NCBI GenBank assembly: GCA_017461315.1
Contig: JAFTYR010000075.1
Location: 62,001 to 126,000, forward strand
Origin: Burkholderiaceae bacterium
GTDB taxonomy: Bacteria; Pseudomonadota; Gammaproteobacteria; Burkholderiales; Burkholderiaceae_F
DNA: 64,000 nt
Direction: 5' to 3'
Made by a program: the position numbers and the translations under genes. The notes under the pieces are model-generated. The model searched no databases. It saw nothing but the letters and a program-made list of their open reading frames with translations, and was not told the DNA's origin. Positions 2,304 through 11,832 of the stretch are shown here, one piece after another. Numbering within the stretch: position 1 is the stretch's first letter; each line of letters starts with the position of its first letter.

Positions 2304-5201
2304 TTAACTATTTAACGTAGTTTTTGAATGAACTTGTTGAAGTTCACCATCTTCCACTGTTACGGGTTTTTTAATTCGTTTTCTACCCAACTTAACTTTC
2401 TTTTCTGTATGAATTGGAGCTGTAGCCGTTTTTTTCGTGCTGACAAGTTCCAATCCAGCTTCTTCAAGTGAGGCGCCAAAATCTACAGTTTTTTGTGTAG
2501 TAATTTCCTTAGCAACTTCTTTTTCGACAGAAACTGGTGTGGTTGGTACTGTTTCTTGAGTAGAAACGAACTTTTCTACCATTTCTTTGGACTCAACAAC
2601 CGTCTTAACAGATTGAGTTTCCGTTTTTTCTTGCGTTTCTTGATCTACCTTCTTTGTATTTTGTGAAGATTTTTCTACATCAATAGAACTAATCGATAAA
2701 TTCGGAATACTAATCGCAATAGTTTCCTCTGTGACCGGTTGTTCAACAACTCGAGCACTTTCAGGATGTGGTGTGTGAACAATTCCTGTTTCAGGAGCAA
2801 CCGCATCTTCTAACGCAGTGACTACAGGAGTAATAGCTACCGGTGGTTTTCCATTAGTGTCAGATGTACGGTGATCTCGTCTTAGGTTACGTCTACGACG
2901 TCGACTACGTGGTTCTGTTGTTGTAGACAATGCTTCTTGAGAAGTTACTACTCGAACAATTTCATTTTCTGCCGATACTTTTTCTACCATGGGTTTAGAT
3001 GTATCTGGCTTGTTCTCTACAGTCAATTTTTCTTTTGTAGAGGAACGTTCTTGCGTCTTCAAGTTTTCTTGGTTAGCCATTTCTTTCTTCTGATTTAAAG
3101 TAGAAGATGTGCTTACCATAGATTCTTGAATAGCTACCTCTTGATTTTCTCTACGATTTTGACGTTTAGAGGATTTTTCAGTTGAAAAATCTTGAGAACG
3201 TTTTACGTTACGACGATTATTCGTCGTAACTGCTCTTTCTACAGTTTCTTGATTACGATCTACAACTTCCGTACGATCACGACGATCATTTCCTCGACGA
3301 GAGTTCGTGTTTTTTTGATCGTCACGATTACGTTTGAGACGTCGATCACGAGGATTTTCTCTTTCTGAACGAGTATTCTTCTTGGGTTTACTTTCAACTG
3401 TTTTTTCACCCATGAAGAAGCCGAGAATCTTTTCCCAAAGAGTCTTTGCTTTAGGTTGTTCTTCTTTTTTCTTTGAGTTGTTTCGTTCTGGTTCTACATG
3501 CTTTGGAGCATCTTCTCTTGCCGGAAGTCCCTTGATTACAGGAACTTGTTTAGGACGATCAGACTGTTGAGCAGGAAGAGCCCTTGTATAAGGATCTGTT
3601 TGCTCTTGGGAAATTTCTTCTGTACGACTATAACTCGGGGTAGAAACTTCAAGTCGTTCATCATCGGTTCTCAGTCGTTCAACATGGTAGTGAGGAGTTT
3701 CTAAGTTCTTGTTGGGAATTAGAATCACATTGATGTGATGACGACTTTCAATTTTCGCAATATCTTCTCTCTTTTCATTTAAAAGATAGGTGCCTACATC
3801 AACAGGAACCTGAGCCTGCAGTGCTGCAGTACCATCCTTCAGTGCTTCTTCCTGAAGAATACGAAGAATCTGAATCGCACTTGATTCTGTATCACGGATT
3901 ACACCAACACCGTTACAGCGAGGGCAAGTGATGTGGCTACCTTCATAAAGAGAAGGGCGCAATCTCTGTCGTGATAATTCCATTAAACCAAAGCGAGAAA
4001 TCTTTGCTAATTGAACTCGTGCTCGGTCATAGCGAATAGCTTCTTTGAGTCGTTGTTCAATGTCACGTTGATTTTTTGGATCTTCCATATCGATGAAATC
4101 GATAACGATGAGTCCTCCTAAATCTCTTAGACGCATTTGACGAGCAACTTCATCCGCCGATTCGCAATTCGTTCTATAAGCTGTTTCCTCAATATCAGTA
4201 CCACGAGTTGCTCTAGCCGAGTTCACATCAATAGCGACCAGTGCCTCTGTATGGTCAATAACAATCGCACCACCGGAGGGAAGAGGGACGGTTCTAGAGT
4301 AAGCCGTTTCAATTTGATGTTCAATCTGGAATCGAGAGAATAAAGGAATGTCATCCGTATAACGTTTAACCCGACCGACCATATCAGGCATGACGTGTCC
4401 CATGAACTGTCGAGCTTGCTCATAAATGTCATCGGTATCGACAAGGATTTCACCGATTTCTGGTTGGAAATAATCTCGAATAGCACGAATAACGAGATTG
4501 CTTTCTTCAACAATGAGGAATGGAGCTGGATTGACTCGCTTTAATGCCTGACCGTTAGCGTCGTGTGAAACTGAGACATAGTTTCCCTGTCTGTCTTCGT
4601 ACTGAGGCGCTGCAGCTTCTGAAATGGCATTCCAGAGTTTAATTAAATAATTTAAGTCCCACTGAAGTTCTTCTACCGATCGACCGATACCTGCAGTTCG
4701 AGCAATTAAGCTCATGCCACGAGGACACTGGAGTTTTTCCATTGTTTCTTTCAGTTCTTGGCGTTCTTCGCCTTCAATACGGCGACTAACTCCACCACCT
4801 CTAGGATTATTCGGCATCAAAACCAAATAACGACCGGCAAGAGAAATGAATGTTGTAAGGGCGGCTCCCTTGTTCCCTCGTTCTTCTTTTTCTACTTGTA
4901 CGATAAGTTCTGCACCTTCAGAAATTGCTTCCTTGATAGAGCAGTTTCTGACATCAACACCTTCATTGAAATATTGACGAGAAATTTCTTTAAATGGTAA
5001 AAAACCATGTCTTTCTTCGCCATAATCAACGAAACAAGCTTCAAGAGAAGGTTCAACTCGAGTAACGATACCCTTATAGATGTTGGATTTACGGTGTTGA
5101 TTCGCTGCTGATTCGATATCAATATCGATCAACTGCTGTCCGTCGACTATGCTCACACGCAATTCTTCTTGGTGTGTGGCATTAAAAAGCATGCGCTTCA
5201 T
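2304..5201 (-). CDS. rne: Ribonuclease E
   Basis: The essential endoribonuclease of mRNA decay and of rRNA and tRNA maturation; it normally scaffolds a degradosome at the inner membrane. The 965-residue product starts [13 protein letters not shown], typical of RNase E. An S1 domain covers roughly residues 38-130, the DNase I-like catalytic residues are Asp325 and Asp368, and the zinc-link CPRC motif is at 426-429. From about residue 530 the chain is low complexity: Arg-rich patches (including SRRRRR), then a long Thr/Glu/Val-rich tail, as expected for the disordered scaffold half. I chose the ATG at 5201, not the upstream GTG at 5219, because GAGGAG lies six bases before it. The gene stands alone with a long structured leader. 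Confidence 0.97.
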
Positions 5202-5282
5202 CAAGCACTCCTCAACCACTGTCGCGGGTTATTAGCGTGCTGGATGATTTTGTTTAAAAACAAAAGGTTAAGTACTGGATCA

Positions 5283-5425
5283 ACACGAACACCACCCTCC
5301 TAGTGAAAAAAGGATCAAGGAAGGTGGTTTCGTGTGATAGGACGAATTCCGGGCGGAAAAGGACATATCCTTTAAAGGATCCATTTTTATCCAATTCATC
5401 GGCATCATCGGAAGGTGTCCTATCA
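5283..5425 (-). promoter_or_regulatory. Structured 5' leader of rne mRNA
   Basis: Two stacked stem-loops abut in the untranslated region upstream of rne. Stem A pairs 5283-5296 with 5323-5335 (13 pairs, one bulged C). Stem B pairs 5335-5343 with 5417-5425 (9 perfect pairs) and continues with 5347-5351 against 5409-5413; an inner hairpin AAAGGA/TCCTTT lies at 5358-5372. RNase E is known in enterobacteria to bind and cut its own leader to regulate itself; that this leader works the same way is inference. The non-coding stretch 5202-5805 holds this structure, a smaller hairpin near 5535-5552, a promoter candidate and a minus-strand terminator, and no gene. Confidence 0.6.
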
Positions 5426-5662
5426 ACCAATACATGCTACGAATAAATTCTTAGCACTTTAATTAATCAATACATTCGTACGCAATCCAATCAATGGAAG
5501 CGTAAAGTTTTTAAACTAAATCTGTTCCAACAGTGTACCGTTTCAACGGCACGTCCTTTGCTTTACCTCAACAATCATGCCAGATTGGAACGAAAGCAAA
5601 GCGATCATTAACATTCTTTCCTTAAATTAGCTATTGAGAGCCTTTATTTTTCCGACTTTTTA

Positions 5663-5692
5663 ATTACAGAGTCCTCATCAGGCTACAATCAA
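5663..5692 (-). promoter_or_regulatory. Candidate sigma-70 promoter of rne
   Basis: Read on the minus strand: TTGATT (5692-5687), an 18-base spacer, then TGTAAT (5668-5663). It would give a leader of about 450 bases including the stem-loops at 5283-5425. This is pattern matching only. Confidence 0.4.
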
Positions 5693-5753
5693 CGCCAAAA
5701 CGAGATTTTATTCCATCGTTTGTTTAGGTCTTTTCCTAGTGACAAAATAAAAA

Positions 5754-5769
5754 CCCTCTAATATGAGGG
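5754..5769 (-). terminator. Minus-strand terminator upstream of rne
   Basis: CCCTC (5754-5758) pairs with GAGGG (5765-5769) around a six-base loop. On the minus strand it is followed by TTTTTATTTT, a clear intrinsic terminator. It points toward rne and lies upstream of the rne promoter candidate, so it either blocks antisense transcription coming out of rluC or attenuates a more distal rne promoter. Confidence 0.65.
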
Positions 5770-5805
5770 CAGGAAGCAAAAACCTCAGTCGGAATTCTAA
5801 AGCAA

Positions 5806-6900
5806 ATGAAAGACTCACGCCAATTAAAGAGAACGATTTCAGCGTCCAATACAGGTTTGGAACGAAAAAAACGAACTAGAAGTGGTAAAGAACTTTTAGC
5901 TAAATTGAATGTAGATTTATTGAAAGATAAGAAAAAATCTGAGAAAGAAACAAAAAATTACAACAAAGTACGGTTTCAAAAGATTACAGAAGCCTCTGAT
6001 GGACAACGGCTCGATAATTTTTTGTTTGGTTTTCTCAAAGGAGTACCAAAGTCTCATATCTATCGTGTTATTCGCAATGGGGAGGTTCGTATCAATAAAT
6101 CTAGAGCGAAAGCAGAGACTAAATTAATATTGGATGACGTAGTTCGAATTCCTCCGATTACGTGTTCTGAATCAAAACCAGTAGAAACGCCAGCTTTTGT
6201 TGATAGTCCTGTCATTCTCTATGAAGATGAACATCTTTTAGTCGTTGATAAGCCAGAAGGACTGGCAAGTCACGGAGGTAGTGGTATCTCGTATGGTTTG
6301 ATTGAGCGAATGAGGGCAACAAGACCAGAAGCAACTTTTTTAGAGTTGGCACATCGTTTAGATCGAGATACTAGTGGTGTCATCGTAATGGCTAAGACTC
6401 GAAAGTGTCTTGTGCGTTTACATGAGATGATGAAAAATGGTGAAGTTCATAAAACCTATCGTACTTTGGTAAAAGGTGATTGGGTTAATGATCGTCAACA
6501 TATCAAAGAACCCTTATATAAATATTTGACCACTCAGGGTGAGCGACGCGTAAGAGTAGATTACGACAAAGGATTACCTTCGCATTCAATTTTTAATTTA
6601 ATAGAGCGTTTTGGCTCCGTGTCTTATCTAGAAGTGGTTCTTAAAACAGGTCGAACTCATCAAATTCGTGTACATGCTTGCTCTCAAGGACATCCGTTAG
6701 TGGGCGACGATAAGTATGGAGATTTTGACTTTAATCATGATGTAGAAAAAGGAATTTTAGGTATTCCTTTTAAGCGAATGTATTTACATGCATGGAAGTT
6801 AGAGTTTAAGCATCCTATTTCTGGTGACAGTCTTTGTATTGAGTGTCCAGAAACTCAAGAGTGTCGAAACCTTATCAATGTCTTGAGACAAGGCCTATGA
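5806..6900 (+). CDS. rluC: 23S rRNA pseudouridine synthase RluC
   Basis: An RluA-family pseudouridine synthase; RluC modifies 23S rRNA positions 955, 2504 and 2580 (E. coli numbering). The 364-residue protein has a Lys/Arg-rich N-terminal extension of about 55 residues, an S4 RNA-binding domain (about 63-118) and the catalytic domain with HRLDRDTSG at 183-191, in which Asp186 is the nucleophile, followed by the RTHQIRVH motif. RluC rather than RluA or RluD is inferred from the S4 domain and the position next to rne, which is conserved in proteobacteria. The extension is longer than in E. coli, and a later start cannot be excluded. Its end overlaps the next gene. Confidence 0.9.
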   Translation: MKDSRQLKRTISASNTGLERKKRTRSGKELLAKLNVDLLKDKKKSEKETKNYNKVRFQKITEASDGQRLDNFLFGFLKGVPKSHIYRVIRNGEVRINKSRAKAETKLILDDVVRIPPITCSESKPVETPAFVDSPVILYEDEHLLVVDKPEGLASHGGSGISYGLIERMRATRPEATFLELAHRLDRDTSGVIVMAKTRKCLVRLHEMMKNGEVHKTYRTLVKGDWVNDRQHIKEPLYKYLTTQGERRVRVDYDKGLPSHSIFNLIERFGSVSYLEVVLKTGRTHQIRVHACSQGHPLVGDDKYGDFDFNHDVEKGILGIPFKRMYLHAWKLEFKHPISGDSLCIECPETQECRNLINVLRQGL

Positions 6901-7547
6901 AATATTCAGTCGTTGCATTTGATTGGGATGGAACATTGGCAAACTCAACGGGGGTGATTGTTGAGAGTCTTCAATACGCAAATCAACAAATGGGTTTAAA
7001 TCCTGTTTCCGAACAAGAAGCAAAAAGTGTCATTGGCTTGTCACTTTTTAATATGTTGACTCATTTGGTTCCAGAGCTACCGGAAGAGAAATATTCAAAA
7101 TATCTTGAATACTACGTGTCTTACTATCTAAAACTAGAGGATTCTATTGAACTGTTTGAAGGTATTTTCCCTTTACTAGAAATACTTAAGAATTCGGGTA
7201 TAAAAATCGCTATTGTGACGGGTAAAAGTCGCAAAGGTGTCGATCGCATCCTAAAACGGATGGAATTGCTTAATTTTTTTGATGCAACCTACTGTGCAAG
7301 CGAATATGCTTCAAAGCCGGATCCTATGATGTTAAATGCTTTATTGAGGGAATTTAATGTAACTGACAATCACGTTTTGATGGTAGGAGACGCTCTTTAT
7401 GATATTCAAATTGCACATAATGCGAATTGTGATTCTGTTGCGGTAACTTACGGAGCGGGAAGTCTCGAGCAACTCGCTCAAGCCCAACCAACTTATCTGG
7501 TTCATAGTGTAAGCGAGTTGCGAAAATTACTTTTATCGGCTTGCTAA
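6897..7547 (+). CDS. HAD-family phosphatase (phosphoglycolate phosphatase-like)
   Basis: A HAD superfamily hydrolase of 216 residues. Motif I is FDWDGTLANS with the nucleophile Asp9 and the acid/base Asp11; motif II is IVTGKS; motifs III/IV include KPDP and MVGDALYDIQIA. The helical cap between motifs I and II is the type found in Gph and related phosphatases. I used the ATG at 6897, which overlaps the rluC stop as ATGA; the longer frame starting at 6843 lies inside rluC. The substrate cannot be read from the sequence. Neighbours suggest co-transcription with rluC. The 3' end overlaps the convergent methyltransferase gene by 15 bases. Confidence 0.85.
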   Translation: MKYSVVAFDWDGTLANSTGVIVESLQYANQQMGLNPVSEQEAKSVIGLSLFNMLTHLVPELPEEKYSKYLEYYVSYYLKLEDSIELFEGIFPLLEILKNSGIKIAIVTGKSRKGVDRILKRMELLNFFDATYCASEYASKPDPMMLNALLREFNVTDNHVLMVGDALYDIQIAHNANCDSVAVTYGAGSLEQLAQAQPTYLVHSVSELRKLLLSAC

Positions 7548-8240
7548 AAGACCAAAAATAGTCGGAAGCTTAGGAAGGTCTTGTATTTTTTTCCATTCAG
7601 AAGCTTTCATGGTTCGAATGGATTGTGCAGATCCCGTGATATCTACGGCCACTAAAATCCGTGTGTTAGGAGCACAATACTTTACTAAGTCTCTTAGAAG
7701 ACCGGTATTTCGATAAGGAGTTTCGATGAAAAGCTGTGTTTCTCCTGCTCCTTGCATACTTTGTTTTTCTAAAGCTCGAATGGTCTTACTTCTTTGTGGT
7801 TCTTTAATCGGTAAATATCCACAGAAGCGGAAATGTTGACCATCGAGTCCAGAAGCCATCAGAGCAAGAATGATAGAACAGGGACCCACGAGCGGTACCA
7901 CAGAAATCCCTCGATCTTGTGCTTCGGCAACAATTTGTGCACCGGGGTCGGCTATGCCCGGGCATCCAGCCTCACTAATAATTCCGACGTCATTACCCTG
8001 TAGGAGAGGGTTTACGTATTGAATGATTTTTGCTGGATCCGTGTGATGACCAATTTCAATAATAGTGAGTTCAGCAATCGGTTTGGGATGCTTTATTTCT
8101 TTTAAGAAAGCACGGGCAGACTTAGCATTTTCAACTAAAAAAACAGACAGCTCCCGCGTTACTTCTAGTACTTGTTGCGGAAGTGCTTGGTTGAGTGTCC
8201 CATCAGCGATAGGGACTGGAATCATATAAAGTTGGCTCAT
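7533..8240 (-). CDS. SAM-dependent methyltransferase, RsmI-like (tetrapyrrole methylase fold)
   Basis: A 235-residue protein of the same fold as RsmI, which 2'-O-methylates C1402 of 16S rRNA. Recognisable segments are the N-terminal LYMIPVPI strand, IISEAGCPGIADPG (the SAM-binding loop) and VPLVGPCSIILALMASGL. It is shorter than RsmI and lacks its C-terminal region, matching a group of RsmI paralogues often found beside maf in betaproteobacteria. The exact substrate is unknown. Its start overlaps the maf stop by four bases, so the pair is translationally coupled. The strict RsmI name is not warranted. Confidence 0.8.
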   Translation of the reverse strand: MSQLYMIPVPIADGTLNQALPQQVLEVTRELSVFLVENAKSARAFLKEIKHPKPIAELTIIEIGHHTDPAKIIQYVNPLLQGNDVGIISEAGCPGIADPGAQIVAEAQDRGISVVPLVGPCSIILALMASGLDGQHFRFCGYLPIKEPQRSKTIRALEKQSMQGAGETQLFIETPYRNTGLLRDLVKYCAPNTRILVAVDITGSAQSIRTMKASEWKKIQDLPKLPTIFGLLASR

Positions 8241-8836
8241 TTTAGAATAGTAGACAATGGAGAAACACCTACTTTTGCTAGCATTTCGGAGACTCGAATA
8301 AGAGGTAGGCCGATGATAGCAGTCGGATCTGTTGATTGGTATTCTCGAATAAGAGAGATACCTAGTTTTTCAATTTTTGCCGATCCCGCACAATCAAAGG
8401 GTTCTTCTAATTTTAGATAGGTATCAATAGATTCTTCAGAAAGGTTACGAATAAAAAGGGTCGTTTGAACTTCATCTAATTCGTAAGAACCATCTGGAGC
8501 CACGATGCAAATGCCCGAGTGAAATACAACCGATTTACCACTCATAGTCATTAATTGTTCTTTTGCTTTTTCGTAAGTATGTGGCTTTCCCAGACTTTTT
8601 CCATCTAGGCATAGTACTTGATCACTGCCGATAATGATTTGACCTGGATACATTTTGGCTATAGCAAAGGCTTTTAGTTTTGAAAGCCTTAAAGCTAAGT
8701 CTCTAGGGGTTTCATTAGGACAAGGGGTTTCGTCAACATCGGGAGAAACACAAGTAAAGGGAACGTGAAGCCGTTCTAACAATTCTCGACGATATGGAGA
8801 GCTAGAAGCTAGGATAACTTGAACATTGTTTGTCAT
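8237..8836 (-). CDS. Maf family nucleotide pyrophosphatase
   Basis: Maf/YceF proteins hydrolyse non-canonical or modified nucleoside triphosphates to monophosphates. Diagnostic features are ILASSSPYRRELL near the N-terminus, DVDETP, IIGSDQVL with the catalytic Asp, and KAKEQLMTMSGKSVVFHSG. The position next to yceD and rpmF corresponds to E. coli yceF, the m7GTP pyrophosphatase, so the YceF subgroup is likely. I chose the ATG at 8836 (199 residues, normal length); an upstream ATG at 8890 would overlap the divergent yceD. No good ribosome site is visible before either start. It is divergent from yceD with about 23 bases between start codons. Confidence 0.9.
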   Translation of the reverse strand: MTNNVQVILASSSPYRRELLERLHVPFTCVSPDVDETPCPNETPRDLALRLSKLKAFAIAKMYPGQIIIGSDQVLCLDGKSLGKPHTYEKAKEQLMTMSGKSVVFHSGICIVAPDGSYELDEVQTTLFIRNLSEESIDTYLKLEEPFDCAGSAKIEKLGISLIREYQSTDPTAIIGLPLIRVSEMLAKVGVSPLSTILK

Positions 8837-8859
8837 AATATGCATATATGGAGAAAAAT

Positions 8860-9396
8860 ATGAACGAAGATTTTCTAAAATCAAATGCATATGTGGATGT
8901 TTACGAATTGTCTCGGACTAAAGATACGATCTCAGGTCGAGTACTTTTAAGTGACATGCCACGTCTACAGGACTTAATTTTACAGTCTAATAAAGCGTTG
9001 CAATTTACTATTTGTGGCATCGTCGGTAAAGAGGGCTGGCCTGGAGCTACTGTGACATTATCTGGTGATGTTCCTCTTGTCTGTAATCGTTGCAATCAAC
9101 CGATGAGTTTTGAAATGAACCGGGAGGTGGTTTTTAGATTTGCAAAAAGCGAGTCTGAAGCGAATCAGATCCCTATCGAAGAAGATGATGATATTGAGAT
9201 TGTCGTTGGTAGTACCAAGATGAACTTATTGGAATGGCTCGAAGAAGAGGCTTTGCTTTCATTACCTTTAGTGCCAATGCATCTGGAACAATGTATCGAA
9301 CCATTACACATTCGTTTAGGTGAAGATGAAGAAAACGAGAAAAAAAATCCTTTTGCACAATTAAAAGAAATGAAGAACTTGAGAAAAGCAGACTAA
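8860..9396 (+). CDS. yceD: YceD family protein (DUF177, 23S rRNA accumulation protein)
   Basis: DUF177 proteins affect 23S rRNA accumulation and are almost always found directly upstream of rpmF, as here. The 178-residue product contains the CNRCNQPM motif in its middle, an acidic stretch (EEDDDIEIV) and the LEEEALLSLPLVPMH segment typical of the family. Start: the ATG at 8860 has GGAG eight bases upstream; an ATG at 8848 would place that site inside the gene. It probably shares a transcript with rpmF, with a hairpin between the two. Confidence 0.92.
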   Translation: MNEDFLKSNAYVDVYELSRTKDTISGRVLLSDMPRLQDLILQSNKALQFTICGIVGKEGWPGATVTLSGDVPLVCNRCNQPMSFEMNREVVFRFAKSESEANQIPIEEDDDIEIVVGSTKMNLLEWLEEEALLSLPLVPMHLEQCIEPLHIRLGEDEENEKKNPFAQLKEMKNLRKAD

Positions 9397-9424
9397 TTGT
9401 GTAGAATCCGTTGTTTTCGATGAG

Positions 9425-9455
9425 TGTCATTGGGGAGGTATATGCTCCGATGACA
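9425..9455 (+). promoter_or_regulatory. Stem-loop in the rpmF leader
   Basis: Positions 9425-9435 pair with 9445-9455 (eleven pairs, two of them G-U) between the yceD stop and the rpmF start, about 40 bases before the ribosome site. There is no T-tract, so it is not a terminator. It may be an mRNA stability or ribosomal protein regulatory element; no known L32 leader motif is claimed. Confidence 0.45.
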
Positions 9456-9495
9456 TGATTAAAGTAAATTAACCATTTTAAATCGTGGGGTTACC

Positions 9496-9681
9496 ATGGC
9501 TGTTCAGCAGAACAAGAAATCAACTAATAAGCGCGGCAATCATCGTGCTCATGACTTTTTGACAAATCCACCTCTGGCTGTCGAACCGACAACTGGTGAA
9601 GTGCATCGTCGTCACCACATCTCTGCTTCTGGTTTTTACCGTGGCAAGAAAGTGATCGACACAAAGTCTGACGCAGAATAA
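9496..9681 (+). CDS. rpmF: 50S ribosomal protein L32
   Basis: Small basic subunit protein of the 50S ribosome, 61 residues, of normal length. It begins MAVQQNKKS, continues with [11 protein letters not shown] and has the typical [15 protein letters not shown] block. It lacks zinc-ribbon cysteines, as in most proteobacterial L32. A GTGGGG site precedes the ATG. In related bacteria plsX follows immediately; here the transcript ends at a terminator about 80 bases downstream. Confidence 0.97.
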
Positions 9682-9763
9682 TTAATTTCTTTTGATTTGG
9701 AGTGGATCCGATAGCCCCACAGCGGACGGCTCACTTCGAAACGAAATGAATAAAAAAGAAAAG

Positions 9764-9790
9764 GCAACCTCTCGAGGTTGCTTTTTCTTT
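9764..9790 (+). terminator. Rho-independent terminator after rpmF
   Basis: GCAACCT/AGGTTGC seven-base stem with CTCG tetraloop (9764-9781), followed by TTTTTCTTTTT. It separates yceD-rpmF from the fab cluster. Confidence 0.88.
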
Positions 9791-9886
9791 TTAGAGTTAA
9801 TTTCGCTTAACTTAGGTTAATCAGCAGTGTTTTGGTTTGTTAAGTTGCGTTATGCTAACTGACAGTTCAATTCGATTGTTTAAAGT

Positions 9887-10870
9887 ATGAAGTATTCTCG
9901 GCTTGTTTCAACTGGTAGTTATTTACCAGGCAAACCAATTTCAAATGATGAGCTTGCTCAACGCCTAGCAAAACTAGGAATAGAGACAAGTGATGAATGG
10001 ATACTAAGTCGTACTGGTATTAAACAACGTTATTTGGTAAATGAGCAATCTCCATTATCGACTGGAGATTTGGCCGTTCGGGCCTCGCGGTTAGCTTTAG
10101 AGAAGGCATCGGTTTCTCCTGAAGAGGTTGATCTGATCATTGTTGCTACGACGACTCCAGACCGGATTTTTCCGAGTACAGCATGCTATGTTCAAAATGC
10201 TTTAGGTTGTAAGCGAGCTTCTGCCTTTGATTTGCAAGCAGTGTGTTCCGGCTTTGTTTATGCGTTATCCGTTGCTGATTCGATGATTCGTAGTGGTTCT
10301 GCGAACTATGTTCTAGTCATTGGTAGTGAGGTACTTTCTAGAATTTTGGATTGGAAAGATCGAACGACCTGTGTGCTTTTTGGAGATGGAGCGGGGGTTG
10401 CGCTACTTAAGTCAAGTGATACTCCAGGTATTCTCTCTTCGGTCTTAGGTTCTGATGGGCAGTTTGGAACTGGAGTTTTAGCATCTGATGCTCGAATCGA
10501 AGGAGGCCAAATTGTAGGTGATCCGTTTATTAGAATGGATGGTAAGGTCGTTTTCCGTATGGCTGTTGAGAAGTTGTACGACAGTGCGCTTCAAGTTTTA
10601 AGTAAAGCTGGCTATACACCAAATGATGTTGATTTATATATTCCTCATCAGGCTAATATACGTATTATGACGATGGTGGCTCATAAACTTGGGATTGATG
10701 CAGAAAAGATGATGATTTCACTCGATTCTCACGGCAATACCTCCGCCGCTAGTGTTCCAATTTCCTTGGATAAGGCTATGAATACTAATAAGCTTCGAAA
10801 GGGGGCGCTCGTTTTGTTGCAAGGAGTTGGCGGTGGATTTACCTGGGGATCGGTCCTTCTACGTATTTGA
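9887..10870 (+). CDS. fabH: 3-oxoacyl-ACP synthase III (FabH)
   Basis: Condenses acetyl-CoA with malonyl-ACP to start fatty acid synthesis. The 327-residue thiolase-fold enzyme has the full triad: Cys120 in DLQAVCSGF, His254 in YIPHQANIRI and Asn284 in SHGNTSAAS. The C-terminal GGGFTWGSVLLRI is also typical. It is the first gene of the fatty acid cluster here because plsX is missing. There is no convincing ribosome site directly before the ATG; the preceding about 100 bases after the terminator should hold the promoter for the fab operon. Confidence 0.96.
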   Translation: MKYSRLVSTGSYLPGKPISNDELAQRLAKLGIETSDEWILSRTGIKQRYLVNEQSPLSTGDLAVRASRLALEKASVSPEEVDLIIVATTTPDRIFPSTACYVQNALGCKRASAFDLQAVCSGFVYALSVADSMIRSGSANYVLVIGSEVLSRILDWKDRTTCVLFGDGAGVALLKSSDTPGILSSVLGSDGQFGTGVLASDARIEGGQIVGDPFIRMDGKVVFRMAVEKLYDSALQVLSKAGYTPNDVDLYIPHQANIRIMTMVAHKLGIDAEKMMISLDSHGNTSAASVPISLDKAMNTNKLRKGALVLLQGVGGGFTWGSVLLRI

Positions 10871-10899
10871 TTTGTTATATCTAAATATAAGGAAATATT

Positions 10900-11832
10900 T
10901 TGACTAAGAAAATAGCTTTTGTTTTTCCTGGACAGGGAAGTCAGTCCGTTGGCATGTTAGCCAGTTTTGTTGATATTCCCTTAGTGGATCAAATTTTAAA
11001 TCGAGCCTGTGATACTTTAGGCTTTGACTTAAAAAAACTGATTACAGAGGGACCAGCTGAAGAGCTGAATCTTACGGTGAATACTCAACCGGCTCTTCTT
11101 ACAGCAAGTTACGCTATGTATTCATACTGGAGAAGTTTAGGTGGTGCTACACCCGATATCATGGCTGGACACAGTCTTGGTGAATATTCTGCTTTGGTAT
11201 GTGCTGGTGCGCTCAGTTTTGAGGATGGCTTAAGGTTAGTACGATTCCGTGCTGAACAGATGCAACAAGCAGTTCCTGTTGGACAGGGTTCAATGGCCGC
11301 GATTCTCGGTCTTCCCGATGAAAAAGTAATCGAAATCTGCAAAGAAGCTTCCGGTTCTGGAGTGGTTGAGGCCGTTAACTTTAATACTCCTGGACAAGTC
11401 GTTATTGCTGGTGAAATAGCCCAGCTACAGGACGCAATGCAACGCTGTAAGGATGCCGGTGCAAAACGAGCATTACCATTGAAGGTTTCTGGTCCATTCC
11501 ATTCTAGTCTGATGAAGCCCGCTGCCAATAAACTAGCTGAACGTTTAGCAGATGTTGAATTTACTGTACCAAGCATTCCAATTTTGCATAACGTAGATGT
11601 GAAGACCCGGGATACTGTTGATGGCATAAAGAGTGCTTTATCGGATCAGGTTGCATCTGCAGTTCTGTGGTCAAAAACCATTCTTGAAATGGAAAGCATG
11701 GGAATTGAAACGATTTACGAATGTGGTCCTGGAGCCGCATTGACCGGTATGGTTAAGCGTATTACGCCATCTGTATCTTCAAAATCCATTAATACATTAG
11801 AAGCCATTGATATGGCTCTTAAAGAGGGTTGA
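10900..11832 (+). CDS. fabD: Malonyl-CoA:ACP transacylase (FabD)
   Basis: Loads malonyl groups onto acyl carrier protein. The 310-residue product has the FVFPGQGSQ opening, the nucleophile Ser92 in GHSLGEYSAL and His201 in SGPFHSSLM, the same residue numbers as in E. coli FabD. The start is TTG with AAGGA about six bases upstream; no ATG fits the conserved N-terminus. The stop overlaps the region just before fabG, so fabD and fabG are co-translated or nearly so. Confidence 0.96.
   Translation: MTKKIAFVFPGQGSQSVGMLASFVDIPLVDQILNRACDTLGFDLKKLITEGPAEELNLTVNTQPALLTASYAMYSYWRSLGGATPDIMAGHSLGEYSALVCAGALSFEDGLRLVRFRAEQMQQAVPVGQGSMAAILGLPDEKVIEICKEASGSGVVEAVNFNTPGQVVIAGEIAQLQDAMQRCKDAGAKRALPLKVSGPFHSSLMKPAANKLAERLADVEFTVPSIPILHNVDVKTRDTVDGIKSALSDQVASAVLWSKTILEMESMGIETIYECGPGAALTGMVKRITPSVSSKSINTLEAIDMALKEG

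Follow-up and report, generated by a model that had tools for sequence, protein, structure and literature searches.

RNase E is the main RNA-cutting enzyme and is essential, and the long gap between its gene and the divergently transcribed rluC in a betaproteobacterium raises the question of whether the rne mRNA begins with a leader that controls its own expression and, if so, which part of that leader is under selection. The locus lies in a window of 64,000 nucleotides (the whole stretch of DNA analysed) belonging to a draft genome of 1.55 Mb in 81 contigs. An earlier note, made from the letters of the window, had proposed a long, structured rne leader that may be a separately evolved autoregulatory element. 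The comparison used here covers 66 further genomes of the same family from 17 other genera, the source genome being the sole representative of its own genus. Its closest relatives are Burkholderiales, and since Duodenibacillus (Sutterellaceae) is among the family genomes, the family covers at least part of Sutterellaceae. The two genes that border the gap are:

2304..5201, minus strand: rne, RNase E, 965 aa (Pfam RNase_E_G 1.4e-93, S1, RNase_E_G_Thio)
5806..6900, plus strand: rluC, divergent pseudouridine synthase

The intergenic gap is exactly 5202-5805 (604 nt), with the rne ATG at 5201 on the minus strand and the rluC ATG at 5806 on the plus strand. The start of rne is the ATG at 5201, the GTG at 5219 merely opening the longest open reading frame, and the MKRML N-terminus of RNase E is kept across the family. 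In every Burkholderiales locus where rluC was found, it lies divergently beside rne. Two promoter elements are predicted within or at the edge of the gap:

5794..5823, minus strand: predicted rne promoter TTGGCG-18-TAGAAT, from a consensus scan and its conservation at the rluC start, overlapping the rluC start codon
5684..5689, plus strand: candidate rluC -10 box TACAAT, within GGCTACAATC, from 8-mer conservation and with a weak -35

The consensus scan gave TTGGCG-18-TAGAAT as the sole promoter-like site, which alone is not above chance (1 found versus 1.4 expected). Conservation carries the assignment: genomes L002-L005 and L007 (genera g15 and g17) have TTGGCG or ATGGCG-18-TARAAT in the same place, with the CAT of the rluC start inside it, and most other genera have TATACT or TATAAT at the equivalent position over the rluC start. 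A promoter held at the rluC start implies that the whole leader, predicted at ~586 nt, is transcribed, with rne likely starting near 5787. The earlier note had held that a start downstream of 5283 would speak against its proposal; the conserved promoter points instead to the far end of the gap. The rne leaders implied in the same way for the relatives are ~450 to 1500 nt long and are kept in all genera. In some g16 genomes (L113, L115, L125), rne and rluC are ~1.4-1.6 kb apart and the promoter remains at the rluC start, which implies very long rne leaders there. On the opposite strand, the 8-mer GCTACAAT, which ends in TACAAT (5684-5689), occurs in 13 of 18 genera versus 0.2 expected and is probably the rluC -10 box. 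With the predicted starts near 5697 for rluC and near 5787 for rne, the first ~90 nt of the divergent transcripts would be complementary. A k-mer search of the mid-leader across genera returned only promoter motifs as widely recurring; the motif GATGATG was found in 5 genera only, likely by chance. Upstream open reading frames in the leader were examined as well and none makes a convincing leader peptide.

All the structures that the earlier note had listed are present where it placed them, namely two abutting stems, an inner palindrome and a further hairpin. Stem A has its arms near 5284-5297/5322-5336 and as a whole spans 5283-5335 (21 bp, near-perfect); stem B consists of 5335-5343/5417-5425 (9 bp) and 5347-5351/5409-5413 (5 bp), and the inner palindrome ATCCTTTAAAGGAT is found at 5367-5380. 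Folding adds a junction that unites the two stems:

5272..5433, minus strand: predicted three-way junction, with closing helix 5427-5433/5272-5278 (7 bp), stem B as 5336-5343/5417-5424 with 5347-5351/5409-5413, and stem A as 5283-5335
5535..5552, minus strand: 7-bp hairpin GUGCCGUUGAAACGGUAC, from folding, for which no counterpart was recognised in relatives

The junction folds at -61.5 kcal/mol (z -6.0, 0/300 shuffles), with predicted probabilities of 0.58-0.85 for the closing helix and at least 0.97 for the outer pairs of stems A and B. On the rne strand, against dinucleotide shuffles, 5202-5440 reaches -78.1 kcal/mol (z -5.4), the full 604 nt have z -5.4 and 5441-5805 has z -2.9. The best short hairpin (within 60 nt) is stem A, which at -31.1 lies beyond all 200 shuffles; once it is left out, the best local structure of the leader is ordinary (106/200 shuffles are equally good), and the stem at 5331-5430 (stem B) alone is moderately unusual (8/300 shuffles). 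As the folding excess is concentrated in 5272-5433, the statement that these structures fill the 604-base gap is overstated.

These stems appear to belong to this lineage. A DNA similarity search recognised no counterpart of the named stems in the 66 relatives of 17 other genera, and the only rne-locus match of the leader was to the ribosome-site region (G048/L004, query 566-604). The folding excess at the equivalent place has genus means of +0.4 to -2.4 in relatives, versus -6.2 in the window. Junction and stems are thus a striking lineage-specific structure as predicted from one sequence. RNase III sites are carried by the E. coli rnc and pnp leaders, and stem A could likewise be such a site, whose processing sets the stability of the rne mRNA; its length and near-perfection suit known RNase III substrates, but relatives do without it, and we regard this role as very unlikely. 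It is also highly unlikely that the stems act at the DNA level, or are a mobile repeat (a REP/MITE-like insert, a terminator or an operator), instead of forming an RNA element. Their absence from relatives would fit such an origin, as would the folding of stem B, which is about as good on either strand. However, a search of the source genome found no second copy of the stems, neither stem A nor stem B is followed by a T-run, and stem A is stronger on the rne strand than on the other (z -6.2 versus -2.8).

The earlier note had suggested aligning rne upstream regions of related genomes and looking for covariation. That comparison does bring out a conserved and covarying part, but it is a hairpin at the ribosome site, absent from the note's list, and not the stems it named:

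5204..5241, minus strand: Shine-Dalgarno-sequestering hairpin, 38 nt, AGCAC-G-CU...AACC-C-GC-GACA-GU-GGUU...GG-A-GUGCU (covariation model R1, 63.6 bits)
5208..5211, minus strand: Shine-Dalgarno GGAG, part of the hairpin's 3' arm and 6 nt ahead of the ATG

Three of the four bases of GGAG are predicted to be paired (P ~0.95, folding context 5100-5440). In the family consensus, the arm RGCAC-G-YY is joined by a variable junction to an inner stem, which has a bulged pyrimidine and is capped by GC-GNNA-GU; GG-A-GUGYY, which holds the Shine-Dalgarno, comes next. The apex motif YGCGNNAGU is near-constant across eight genera. The model R1 was built on 7 ungapped sequences from 4 genera and matches the rne start in most of the 66 family loci, including genera outside the model (L023 at 1.5e-14, L125 at 1.8e-9, L131 at 2.9e-8 and L026 at 5e-8). 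In a set of 27 distinct sequences from 8 genera, pairing holds in 93.7% of cells versus 85.2% in shuffles (0/500), a count in which the junctions were cut out and the arms were chosen by a pattern that itself fixes part of them. In the same sequences, both partners have changed in 34 cells versus 12.1 in shuffles (0/500 as high), and the covariation score is 0.372 versus 0.213 (0/500). Since kinship can lift such scores above shuffles without any structure, and since the arms were picked by pattern, most weight falls on the independent genera and on the slid versions of the alignment, in which only 29-48% of cells pair (maximum 48.4%). The strong covariation sits in the inner stem; the outer stem hardly varies, its support being a single GC-to-AU double change plus some G-U intermediates (g2). 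The Shine-Dalgarno therefore lies within a helix backed by compensatory changes. G-U pairs occur at several positions and would be A-C on the opposite strand, which argues that selection acts on the RNA in the rne direction. Hairpin, strand and conservation are in this way established by sequence comparison.

The hairpin is not uniform over the family. About half of the genera have another apex, with simple GC hairpins in g3, g5-g7, g9-g13 and g18; the outer arm is retained under a plain GC apex in g3, g5-g7, g10 and g18, and loss of pairs or of the outer arm is seen in some family members, several of them in g4 and g16. Beyond the family, rne genes of other Burkholderiales gave no clear start-site match to R1 except L059, which is itself a family member. 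Matches of 21-30 bits in other Burkholderiales families were taken as chance, as none of them carries rne. Elsewhere in the window and the source genome, R1 matched nothing besides rne, which suits a dedicated control. An alternative hairpin around the start codon (GUGCUU/AAGCGC) was rejected, as the Lys-2 codon does not track the arm consistently between genera. A count of complementarity to the Shine-Dalgarno arm against shuffles was uninformative, its power being low because G-U-rich arms pair with anything.

The leader was then compared with the RNA families of Rfam 15, where no family matched it at gathering or relaxed thresholds; two sub-threshold matches to human RNAs are put down to chance. 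The enterobacterial rne5 (RF00040) had no match over its cut-off anywhere in the family, while the E. coli control was found, and rne-II (RF01756), a motif that precedes rne, had none at any threshold tried. The leader has thus probably evolved separately and is, by analogy, at most a counterpart of the known rne leaders and a member of neither rne5 nor rne-II. Of the earlier proposal, the betaproteobacterial host, the long structured leader and probably the separate origin stand, whereas the conserved element is other than the one it named. The leader of E. coli rne is 361 nt long and mediates feedback (PMC10989929, PMC3997798). The likeness to rne5 lies in a long structured rne leader beside divergent rluC and in the proposed control by the enzyme's own mRNA; the element in the window, however, covers the Shine-Dalgarno, whereas the E. 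coli ribosome site folds weakly in silico. Another rne leader motif, rne-II, has been described separately, and its authors restricted it to Pseudomonadales (PMC2864571). In Synechocystis, rne leaders of 458-622 nt are cleaved by RNase E itself, and cyanobacterial control is reported to act via a U-rich site and premature termination (PMC10989929); these leaders are similarly long, but come from unrelated organisms, and the control reported for them is not by a Shine-Dalgarno hairpin. General Shine-Dalgarno-sequestering hairpins, for instance those in autoregulated ribosomal protein leaders, share the Shine-Dalgarno in the 3' arm and a conserved apex as a possible protein site, whereas the hairpin described here is specific to rne in one family and has no known ligand. 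A search of open-licence papers found no description of this element. Thus, while RNase E control through its own leader in enterobacteria and RNase E cleavage of cyanobacterial rne leaders are already known, what the comparison of genomes adds is a new hairpin, covarying and unlisted in Rfam, at the ribosome site of the rne leader in a single betaproteobacterial family. This suggests that control of rne through its leader arose several times among bacteria, with different RNA structures.

As for what the hairpin does, a Shine-Dalgarno inside a helix suggests a translational brake, and the cell probably throttles RNase E output in this way. With somewhat better than even confidence, we propose that the hairpin-ended ~586-nt leader limits RNase E translation, that the poorly translated mRNA is exposed to RNase E and that the apex is read by a factor; repression, feedback and the identity of that factor are what we infer. 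The rne gene would be transcribed from the promoter at the rluC start codon, and the hairpin, with GGAG in its 3' arm, would lower ribosome loading. Weak translation would then leave the rne mRNA exposed to RNase E, so that the level of RNase E would limit its own synthesis. The near-constant apex suggests recognition, and with its pyrimidine bulge and GC-GNNA-GU it would probably be what a trans-acting factor recognises, with RNase E as the first candidate; at ~40 nt, the hairpin is a compact candidate for binding RNase E or a partner. In this lineage, the 21-bp stem and the three-way junction may in addition act as an RNase E entry site or barrier. Occlusion of the Shine-Dalgarno alone does not imply feedback. 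Feedback is made plausible here by the leader control in E. coli (PMC10989929; PMC3997798) together with the report that Bordetella pertussis has more rne mRNA when RNase E is truncated (PMC8386462), and by analogy with enterobacterial rne5 the leader probably does feed back on the RNase E level. A hairpin that merely fixes a low translation rate, with no sensing or feedback and with neutral upstream stems, is possible though doubtful: what the genera share is the pairing of the Shine-Dalgarno, the apex being different in about half of them, and mid-leader sequence is unconserved between genera, yet such a static brake would need neither a near-constant apical motif nor long leaders retained throughout the family.

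The full-length leader offers one further structure that the earlier note had not listed, and it competes with the hairpin:

5507-5532 with 5238-5261, minus strand: predicted long-range helix, 22 bp, in which 16 nt are 94% complementary (0/150 shuffles with an equal repeat)

Its last 7 bp use the arm of the Shine-Dalgarno hairpin, so the two structures, which share 5238-5241, are mutually exclusive, and because of this competition the predicted probability of the hairpin is 0.19-0.29 in the full-length fold of the window leader. The helix may be a switch or a folding artefact. As a switch, it would capture the anti-Shine-Dalgarno arm and open the ribosome site, and the hairpin would be able to close once the leader is cleaved or unfolded, for instance by RNase E. 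The shared bases and the rarity of a comparable repeat in shuffles fit such a two-state switch, but the helix comes from a single, AT-rich sequence, and the fall of hairpin probability in long folding contexts is seen in many genomes and may reflect the folding model, such long-range predictions being unreliable; we consider the switch quite unlikely. The fuller version, a separately evolved RNase E-responsive switch in which RNase E or the degradosome reads the apex and leader cleavage toggles between helix and hairpin, is likewise unlikely.

Some minor observations concern other leaders and the surrounding genes. The hairpin-loop motif CCGGTTGA, sought in the window and absent from it, occurs in rne leaders of g15, g17 and several Oxalobacteraceae and is possibly another leader element; from the rne start, it lies at -289 in L002, -297 in L004, -289 in L005 and -272 in L007, and it is also present in L031-L033, L039, L079, L084 and L086. 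Past the catalytic half of RNase E (2304-5201, minus strand), a short segment looks amphipathic by eye, like the membrane-targeting sequence of E. coli RNase E. Downstream of rluC (window 6843-11832), genes for a HAD hydrolase, a tetrapyrrole-methylase-like protein, Maf and YceD are followed by fatty-acid synthesis genes, an order that resembles the rluC-yceF-yceD region of E. coli.
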